A stretch of 33,966 nucleotides of DNA from Candidatus Bipolaricaulota bacterium (lineage in GTDB: Bacteria; Bipolaricaulota; Bipolaricaulia; M55B111), in NCBI GenBank assembly GCA_018335015.1, contig JAGXKX010000012.1, positions 1 through 33,966 of the forward strand, given 5' to 3'. Under the pieces are notes generated by a model. It was not told where the DNA came from and made no database searches. It worked only from the letters and a program-made list of their open reading frames with translations. This document shows positions 4,446-33,966 of the stretch, piece by piece. Position 1 is the stretch's first letter. Each line of letters begins with the position of its first letter. The position numbers were made by a program, and so were the translations under genes.

Positions 4446-4664
4446 CAGGGAGTGCTCCCACGCCGAGTAATAAGCCGTACCTTTTTGTTCGGTTCGAGTA
4501 ACCCGCTTCCCCGCTTACTTGGCTGCCGTGATTACCTCTAATACTATGTTAAAAAGGTTAAATCAGTTGCCAGGTAAGCGGGGAAGGGGGTCTGAAAGAA
4601 CGTGAATGACTTCCCGGAGGGTTCCGTAAGCGGAACCAATCGCCGGGGCGTGGGAACCCTTCCA
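4446..4664 (+). repeat. Palindromic repeat unit B, core in forward orientation
   Basis: Arms at 4501-4523 and 4569-4591 are complementary at 21 of 23 positions and enclose a 45-bp core (4524-4568) in the same orientation as unit A. Left flank AGTAATAAGCCGTACC and TTTTTGTTCGGTTCGA, and right flank TCTGAAAGAACGTGAA, are shared with unit E. The outer ends (GCTCCCACGC on the left, GGGGCGTGGGA on the right) are themselves inverted. Downstream (4665-4828) I see no gene; a TCTCGGTTCCGACCACTC block there repeats the right flank of unit A. Confidence 0.87.
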
Positions 4665-4828
4665 GTAATCTCGGTTCCGACCACTCTAACGATAATACCT
4701 CTGTGCCCTCTGGCCCGAGAAATTTCCGACTCGCGTGCTCAAACTGTCCTGTTCATGATAGTGATACTCCCTGCAGGATGTAATATTCATAAATATTTAG
4801 CCTCATTCGGTTAAGGTAATATCCCTCA

Positions 4829-4948: not shown

Positions 4949-5020
4949 GTCAGTCAGACATATGCGCCGCTTCGCTGGAATTTCTCGGGCCAGTAGTCCG
5001 ATCCGTCGACTATCCCCAGC

Positions 5021-5043
5021 AGGCCGGGCTCCCATGCTCGGCC
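5021..5043 (-). repeat. Solo outer-end motif of the dispersed element, reverse orientation
   Basis: GGGCTCCCATGCTCGG is the reverse complement of the outer-end motif found at 6345-6367 and 10101-10127. It lies just downstream of pgk, inside the loop of a 7-bp inverted repeat (4994-5000 with 5055-5061) that could fold at the 3' end of the pgk transcript. Confidence 0.5.
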
Positions 5044-5070
5044 GACAGGAACTCCGGACTATCCGGCTCG

Positions 5071-6336: not shown

Positions 6337-6344
6337 ATTCCGCC

Positions 6345-6367
6345 CGAGCGTGGGAGCCCGGCCTGCT
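6345..6367 (+). repeat. Solo outer-end motif of the dispersed element
   Basis: GAGCGTGGGAGCCCGGCCTG matches the right end of unit E and the reverse copy at 5021-5043. It stands apart, 37 bp before unit C, like the solo motif before unit A. Confidence 0.5.
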
Positions 6368-6403
6368 CTCGTGTTTTGTCCGATTATTTAATCTCGTATC
6401 TCA

Positions 6404-6639
6404 CAGGGAGTGCTCCCAAGCTGTGCGGTAAACTGTACCATTTTGTTCGGTTCGAGTGACCCCCTTCCCCGGTTACCTGGCAACTGATTTAACCTTTAAA
6501 ACCCAGTAGTAGACAAAATCCCGGCAGCCAGGTAACCGGGGAAGGGGGTTCGAAAAAACGTTAAACCCTACCGGAAGTTCTACCCCAACGAATCTATGGT
6601 ACATCAACTCAGCAGGGAGGGCTCCCATGCCCTCCCGAG
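6404..6639 (+). repeat. Palindromic repeat unit C, core inverted
   Basis: Arms at 6459-6481 and 6527-6549 form a perfect 23-bp inverted repeat. The 45-bp core (6482-6526) begins AACTGATTTAACC and ends ATCCCGGCA, so it is the reverse complement of the unit A core; the first 19 bases of its reverse complement match the unit A core exactly. The left flank (TTTTGTTCGGTTCGAGT and the GTGCTCCCA end) stays in the same orientation as in units A and B. The right end (6613-6639) is a palindromic variant with GGGCTCCCATGCC. It lies in the 889-bp divergent gap between pgk and the LolA-like gene. Confidence 0.87.
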
Positions 6640-6692: not shown

Positions 6693-6861
6693 GTTACACT
6701 CGATACAACTTCTCTCCCACGCTCAAAGATCGCGAAACAATTAAGTCTAGCTAACCGGCAATCGGCAAAGTAATTTTAACGCAACTCCGTAGTGGGGCTC
6801 AACGGCATTATTTTAACCGGTTCTTTCATCGCCACCGCCCTTTATAATTGTCCGGTCCCTG

Positions 6862-6947
6862 CTACCCTCTGCCTCTTACCTGGCTGCCAGGATTACCTCT
6901 ACTATTAGGATTTTAGGTAAAATCAGTTGCCAGGTAACCGGGGTAGA
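6862..6947. repeat. Palindromic element D, core forward, different flanks
   Basis: A 44-bp core (6885-6928) in forward orientation sits between 9-bp perfect arm ends TTACCTGGC (6876-6884) and GCCAGGTAA (6929-6937). Beyond these the arms only partly match (a CTACCC block on the left, its complement GGGTAG on the right, with an indel), so this copy is degenerate. The outer flank of units A, B, C and E is missing. It lies about 310 bp downstream of unit C in the same intergenic gap. Confidence 0.75.
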
Positions 6948-7095
6948 ATGAGTGGGGTAAGAAGAACTCATTACTCAACTTACGCTTCGCCTCCATGTAA
7001 TGTTTAAAGAAATGAGTTGAAAAGACTGGGTGAGCGTTACTGGCTGGATTAGCGCCGTCGGGCCGGAAGAACGAGAACCAAGTTACGGGAAGTGT

Positions 7096-9904: not shown

Positions 9905-10127
9905 CAGGGAGTGCTGCTGCGCCGAGTAATAAGCCGTACCTTTTTGTTCGGTTCGATTAACGCCCTTCCCCGCATACCTGGCAACTGATTTAACCTTTAA
10001 AACATAGTAGTAGACAAAATCTCGGCAGCCAGGTATGCGGGGAAGGTCATCTGAAAGAACGTGAACCCCCTACCGGAAGGTTGCATAAACGAACAAATCG
10101 CTCGAGCGTGGGAGCTCGGGCTACGTG
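9905..10127 (+). repeat. Palindromic repeat unit E, core inverted
   Basis: Arms at 9963-9982 and 10028-10047 (19 of 20 complementary) enclose a 45-bp core (9983-10027) in the inverted orientation, as in unit C. Flanks GAGTAATAAGCCGTACC, TTTTTGTTCGGTTCGA and TCTGAAAGAACGTGAA are nearly identical to unit B, whose core has the opposite orientation. Ends CAGGGAGTGCTG and GAGCGTGGGAGCTCGGG are inversely related. It occupies the convergent gap between glmS and pheS. The remaining parts of the gap (9824-9904 and 10128-10245) contain no gene; small stems GTAGTC/GACTAC after glmS and GGAAC/GTTCC after pheS might act as weak terminators. Confidence 0.88.
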
Positions 10128-10245
10128 CTTTTATTGTAGCAGAGACCTTTAGGCCTCCATAGATGCCAAAGATGGTACGGATGCAAAAACCTACCGGTAC
10201 ATGATCTGATGGGTGGAACCGGAAAACGTTCCGTCGTTTGTAGAA

Positions 10246-33825: not shown

Positions 33826-33909
33826 GCTTCCTGCCCCTTACCTGGCAATTGATTTAACCTTTAAAACTAACCGGTAGGCGAAATCCGGGCCAGGTAAGGG
33901 GCAGGAAGC
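33826..33909. repeat. Palindromic element F, core inverted, different arms
   Basis: Perfect 21-bp arms (33826-33846 and 33889-33909; GCTTCCTGCCCCTTACCTGGC on the left) enclose a 42-bp core (33847-33888) beginning AATTGATTTAACCTTTAAAAC, i.e. the inverted orientation seen in units C and E. The outer half of the arms (GCTTCCTGCCC) differs from the ACCCCCTTCCCC of the other copies but is still fully palindromic. No larger unit surrounds it. It sits 32 bp after the HIT gene and could also end that transcript, although no T-run follows. Confidence 0.85.
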
Positions 33910-33966
33910 AGTTATTCGGCTCGGATAGATAAATCGGCCGTTGGTGAAATAACTGAGACTAAGATT

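Follow-up and report, generated by a model that had tools for sequence, protein, structure and literature searches.

Paired substitutions in the two arms of a hairpin are usually taken to prove that the stem functions as RNA. The window analysed here, a stretch of 33,966 nucleotides that is contig 5 of a 1.96 Mb Bipolaricaulota MAG in 152 contigs (genome G000; like all genomes used, a fragmented assembly), raises the question of whether such changes can have another origin. According to an original prediction made from the letters of this stretch, it holds six copies of a hairpin whose arms vary between copies and usually stay complementary within a copy, either because a stem is selected, as RNA or as DNA cruciform, or because one arm is converted by the other in a process that would also invert the loop.

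All six copies exist and their coordinates were confirmed. Copy C (6461-6547, + strand) has a 21-bp stem with Watson-Crick pairs at 21 of 21 positions and a 45-nt loop; its perfect pairing reaches 23 bp (6459-6481 with 6527-6549) and, as RNA, it folds at -58 kcal/mol (z -6.6). Copy F (33826-33909, + strand) is also paired at all 21 positions and has a 42-nt loop, copy E (9962-10048, + strand) pairs at 20/21, and copies A (2487-2573, - strand) and B (4503-4589, - strand) pair at 19/21 each. The arm strings given beforehand were right except for the right arm of copy A, which reads AGTAAGC and not GGTAAGC, so that copy A has one internal mismatch; copy B shows its mirror image. The degenerate outer arms described for copy D (6864-6949, - strand) were found as well, with 14 of 21 stem pairs being Watson-Crick. 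In copy A the loop is inverted with respect to copy C while the flanks are collinear, and the left flank of copy C (6401-6460, + strand) has the same orientation in copies A, B and E, which form a window subfamily. Beside the same intergenic gaps lies a second repeated motif around CGAGCGTGGGAGCCCGGCCTGC, present in both orientations (2387-2425, 4641-4679, 5018-5044, 6341-6379 and 10099-10137).

By comparing the sequences of the copies, we could show that each hairpin forms the core of a non-coding, non-autonomous transposable element (MITE) of about 201 bp, a setting that the original prediction missed although it had recognized the copies and their arms. The element consists, in this order, of a 15-bp terminal inverted repeat, a beta flank of ~31 bp, a 21-bp arm, a loop of ~45 nt, the second 21-bp arm, an alpha flank of ~54 bp and again the 15-bp terminal repeat, the hairpin thus sitting off-centre. 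The terminal repeat CTCAGTTCTTTCACC is found at both ends, and the flanks beyond the stem fall into the two families alpha and beta, both terminated by GGTGAAAGAACTGAG. Among 75 full elements, 71 measured 190-207 bp with matching terminal repeats (as a rule 199-204 bp), and an exact 5-bp target duplication accompanied 28 (compared to 5 for a length of 4 and 3 for a length of 3). When up to one mismatch was allowed, the terminal repeat matched the genome 103 times and its reversed control not at all. When ORFs of at least 130 aa were considered, only 1 of 121 assessable copies lay inside one, the family being mostly intergenic. No clean empty site was seen among the loci compared with relatives. 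The anatomy, copy number and location of the elements are those of prokaryotic MITEs (PMC10969869), which are short, non-coding and intergenic, with terminal inverted repeats, short target duplications, high copy number and strong secondary structure. Unlike in MITEs in general (PMC10969869), however, the strongest hairpin is here internal, off-centre and distinct from the terminal repeats, and it inverts independently of the remainder of the element.

Within the window, copy D is a complete 201-bp element (6816-7016, - strand) with degenerate terminal inverted repeats at both ends, whereas the only recognizable end of copy F is a terminal repeat at 33943-33957 (- strand; GGTGAAATAACTGAG on the + strand). 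The flank common to the subfamily of copies A, B, C and E deviates from the standard terminal repeat. In the relative L049 there is no hairpin at the place of copy D; copies C and D are both missing from it, and the same gap differs there in other ways too. Copy D itself (6864-6949) looks chimeric, one arm resembling copy C (CCCCGGTTACC) and the other the CTGCCTCTTACC subfamily, and this mosaic suggests an exchange between copies.

The family is large and narrowly distributed. With a covariance model built from 45 copies, we found at least 149 copies in G000. In a survey of 30 genomes with this model, whose E-values are rough, four congeners carried the family with 86, 29, 10 and 2 matches, counts that include some double entries for both strands of one hairpin (as do the 89 rows obtained when the congener G002 was searched singly), and none of the 25 genomes from other genera gave a match. 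Among named genomes, exact matches to the hairpin core came only from the Candidatus Bipolaricaulota MAGs GSL_GSL3510_5 and Tobar15.5-16.5m, and the viral contigs searched with the core gave no match. On these comparisons, the MITE family is restricted to a single genus of Bipolaricaulota, to which the salt-lake bacterium studied here belongs.

Then, we analyzed how well the arms pair. A stem length of 21 bp emerges from 143 anchored copies, with Watson-Crick pairs in 81-94% of them at each of positions 1-20, in 68% at position 21 and in only 18-34% at positions 22-28. In the set of 45 copies, 92.5% of the cells pair and 15 of 30 pairs have changed on both sides. First, the cells changed on both sides numbered 161 in these copies, compared to 55.9 +/- 7.2 when the letters of the 3' arm were shuffled (0/500) and to 26-45 when partners were slid by 1-3 columns. 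Second, when a tree was built with flank sequence alone, 66 double changes on the same branch restored a Watson-Crick pair, distributed over 39 branches, while slid partners gave 4-10; on 12 of the 39 branches at least two pairs had changed together. As this tree comes from ~115 columns and has weak resolution, the counts taken from it are indications of scale. The variation of the arms between copies and their complementarity within copies, as originally described, were thereby borne out, and covariation was strong both in the 45 copies and on the flank tree. Third, relatives were checked for simultaneous changes in both arms. Summed over 11 orthologous pairs of insertions, we counted 8 concordant double changes, three of them at copy E, but 44 one-sided ones, so that simultaneous changes do occur but are outnumbered. 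In addition, stem mismatches increased with the decay of the terminal repeats, a proxy for element age (rho 0.30, p 0.01), so that inserted elements do not strictly preserve the pairing of their stems. Together, these comparisons of sequence demonstrate concerted change of the two arms.

The strong covariation and the stable folds could point to a functional RNA or a 3'-UTR structure in which the paired changes are compensatory mutations under selection for pairing. An enrichment of convergent gaps in G000 would fit such a role, as these made up 37 of 119 gaps with an element and 12 of 157 gaps without. The same holds for the conservation of the inner stem and loop. Indeed, in the 75 full elements the inner 9 bp of the stem had a mean pairwise identity of 0.92-0.93 and the loop one of 0.80. 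The terminal repeats reached 0.78-0.81, whereas the outer 12 bp of the stem (0.64-0.65) and the flanks (0.54-0.55) were the most variable parts. Hence, the outer stem changes yet stays paired while the sequence of the core is conserved, so something selects the core, at least as long as the elements are mobile, and pure mutation bias is not sufficient. Selection for a paired RNA should favor G-U over A-C as the intermediate state on the transcribed strand. We observed a slight excess of GT over AC (118 vs 90), nearly symmetric between strands, but it was weak (p = 0.06, and p 0.13 for the 50 vs 35 seen in element orientation, both values treating copies as independent). Moreover, in tandem gaps the orientation of the loop had no relation to the strand of the genes (25 same, 33 opposite), and it flips at fixed sites, as described below. 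The search of Rfam returned no family at the gathering score, and at E <= 5 it gave sub-threshold matches alone, nearly all to animal microRNA families. The rise of mismatches with element age also speaks against this explanation, which we regard as improbable. The nearly symmetric wobble counts, the lack of an Rfam match and the gene-independent orientation together argue against a cis-acting RNA and in favor of copying between arms and spacer inversion at the level of DNA. Of the two initial readings, conversion with loop inversion is thus the better supported, and selection for an RNA stem found no support. The covariation observed here need not mean that an RNA is at work. More generally, very strong covariation goes together in this family with loops that flip at fixed sites and with few signs of selection on an RNA, so covariation tests on repeats can mislead.

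The orientation of the loop was then considered relative to the flanks. With respect to alpha and beta, the loop lay one way in 50 full elements and the opposite way in 25. On the flank tree, orientation changed 18 times, within the range obtained with shuffled labels (mean 21.3, range 16-25), so it carries no extra signal, and it differed in 11 of the 35 pairs whose flanks were at least 0.90 identical. At 11 orthologous insertions, accepted when the element flanks were at least 0.65 identical on each side (apparent orthologues below this value on a side, or whose hairpin anchors failed, were left out), the loop was flipped in 6 cases and kept its direction in the other 5. Two of the flipped ones are in the window. 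Copy E and its orthologue (L121/L049) share flanks that are 0.91 and 0.91 identical, whereas their loops are 0.44 identical when read directly and 0.98 when one is inverted; three stem pairs have changed on both sides. Copy B also differs in loop orientation from its sister-species orthologue (L128/L049), in a less clear comparison (0.58 direct, 0.69 inverted). Some flips were accompanied by almost no arm change, and at orthologous insertions flips seem to be faster or commoner than arm repair. These comparisons show that the hairpin loop is inverted in place.

Two other explanations were weighed against these inversions. A core found in two orientations between collinear flanks could be a separate small palindromic element of 87 bp that inserted into a larger repeat either way round. 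This is contradicted by the in-place inversions themselves, with opposite loops between orthologues whose flanks are 0.91/0.91 identical, by the presence of both orientations among members with nearly identical flanks, and by a distance from stem to terminal repeat that is always the same; we give it hardly any credence. Alternatively, since the MAGs are fragmented, with contigs ending at many of the copies, the flips could be errors of short-read assembly within a repeated palindrome. However, ordinary read-pair spans cover 21-bp stem arms and an element of ~200 bp, and the flipped copies carry private arm and loop changes, making this source of flips very unlikely.

We considered how arms and loop could change within the DNA. 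Our preferred reading, which we hold to be probable, is a MITE whose hairpin arms template one another in replication or repair, causing both arm homogenization and loop inversion. The most likely mechanism is hairpin-mediated template switching, that is slips of DNA copying, and the replication step is inferred. While the DNA is replicated or repaired, the arms would pair, forming a hairpin or a cruciform, and thereby serve as mutual templates. A switch within a strand would copy the mutation of one arm into the other, giving homogenized arms and paired changes, while a switch between strands would copy the loop backwards and so invert it. A switch overrunning the stem would yield a longer stem, possibly with deletion of flank. 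Such extension, which template switching predicts, was observed: 8 of 143 stems ran at least 4 bp beyond the 21 bp, compared to ~0.4 expected. One of these, C106:4696, is an element of 159 bp, its stem going 8 bp past the arms with ~43 bp of the adjacent flank lost. After insertion, stems also decay through one-sided changes, so that the near-perfect stems of young copies may reflect a recent mobile past and occasional correction, and not a demonstrated selection on RNA. That one mechanism serves arms and loop, as first proposed, is plausible but unproved, given the flips with almost no arm change. Indeed, common flips together with the modest arm correction at orthologous sites could reflect two different processes, and with an orientation close to random, arm correction and loop inversion need not come from one event.

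Template switching between inverted-repeat arms has been described in yeast genes (PMC8604942) and in rRNA hairpins (PMC8794818), in both cases with homogenized arms and inverted spacers. The hairpins studied here resemble these quasipalindromes in arm homogenization, in several simultaneous paired changes, in stem extension and in the inverted loop or spacer. In contrast to these cases, a single bacterial genus here holds ~150 paralogous copies along with several orthologues, and orientation is near random. The inverted spacers in yeast are only a few bases long (PMC8604942), whereas the spacer here is ~45 nt, about ten times as long, and this difference counts against the model. Compared to known template switching, the novelty lies in the scale, in the 45-nt spacer and in the setting within a MITE, and the ~150 paralogues with several orthologous insertions provide a natural replicate experiment on the frequency of arm copying and spacer inversion in a bacterium. 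Among MITEs, inversion of the element itself has been reported for the Correia repeat enclosed elements of Neisseria, as cited in a review (PMC10969869). Genomic inversion is common to both families, but here the internal hairpin alone flips, the element ends and flanks being fixed.

Flips seem to outnumber arm repairs and the core is conserved, so processing of a cruciform, or of the folded hairpin by an enzyme, may be at work instead. Invertons, or phase-variable invertible segments, are segments bounded by inverted repeats and found both ways round. Like them, the hairpins have inverted repeats that bound a segment present in both orientations; unlike in them, the spacer is very short and the arms evolve in concert. 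A dedicated recombinase or the transposase of the element could recognize the conserved core, made up of inner stem and loop, in the form of a cruciform or of a hairpin folded from a single strand and actively invert it, the matching of the arms being a by-product or a requirement of transposition. The inner 9 bp and loop are conserved as much as the terminal repeats or more, the orientation is randomized even in close paralogues, and 6 of 11 orthologues differ in it. Nevertheless, 45 bp is a very short distance to bring together two recombination sites on duplex DNA, the arms have no internal dyad, and site-specific inversion alone leaves the concerted change of the arms unexplained, all of which makes such an activity unlikely. 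Speculatively, the conserved 63-bp core (the inner 9-bp stem and the loop) might be a folded-hairpin site for recombination or transposition at which a host protein, or one from an unseen partner, often flips it in place and restores arm pairing. We see this as a long shot; if true, the MITE would be a set of ~150 dispersed tiny DNA switches, a kind not described.

Finally, we looked for a partner element. In the genus itself, no transposase with the ends of the family was found. In the sister genus (G005, contig 126), a partial transposase (L211:2-822) lies just inside the terminal repeat CTCAATTCTTTCACC, a 14/15 match, on one contig only, whose end cuts the gene. The fragment matched Pfam DDE_5 (E 5e-13), and its best NCBIfam models were both IS701, with 73 and 71 bits on this partial sequence, far below their cut-offs of 170 and 150; searches of five other genomes gave no relative of it. 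IS701 elements produce a 4-bp target duplication (PMC2266710). The duplication here is 5 bp, so the MITE was not filed under IS701.

Three other candidates were discarded. Orphan terminal repeats were nearly all truncated ends of elements at contig boundaries and not the ends of an autonomous element. A stretch of 896 bp between exact terminal repeats (L209:552-1447, G003 contig 58) holds no transposase ORF and is apparently made of nested repeat modules. What looked like a transposon end at L193 (G000 contig 67) turned out to be a solo right end, IS200/IS605-like by resemblance only, that had landed in an element. This module of ~79 bp (L193:87-165) runs from CCGATTCCTCCCCAGGG to CCCTGGGGCTTCCTCGG, and it occurs as tens of solitary copies in the genus and two in a sister genus, some of them inside the MITE.
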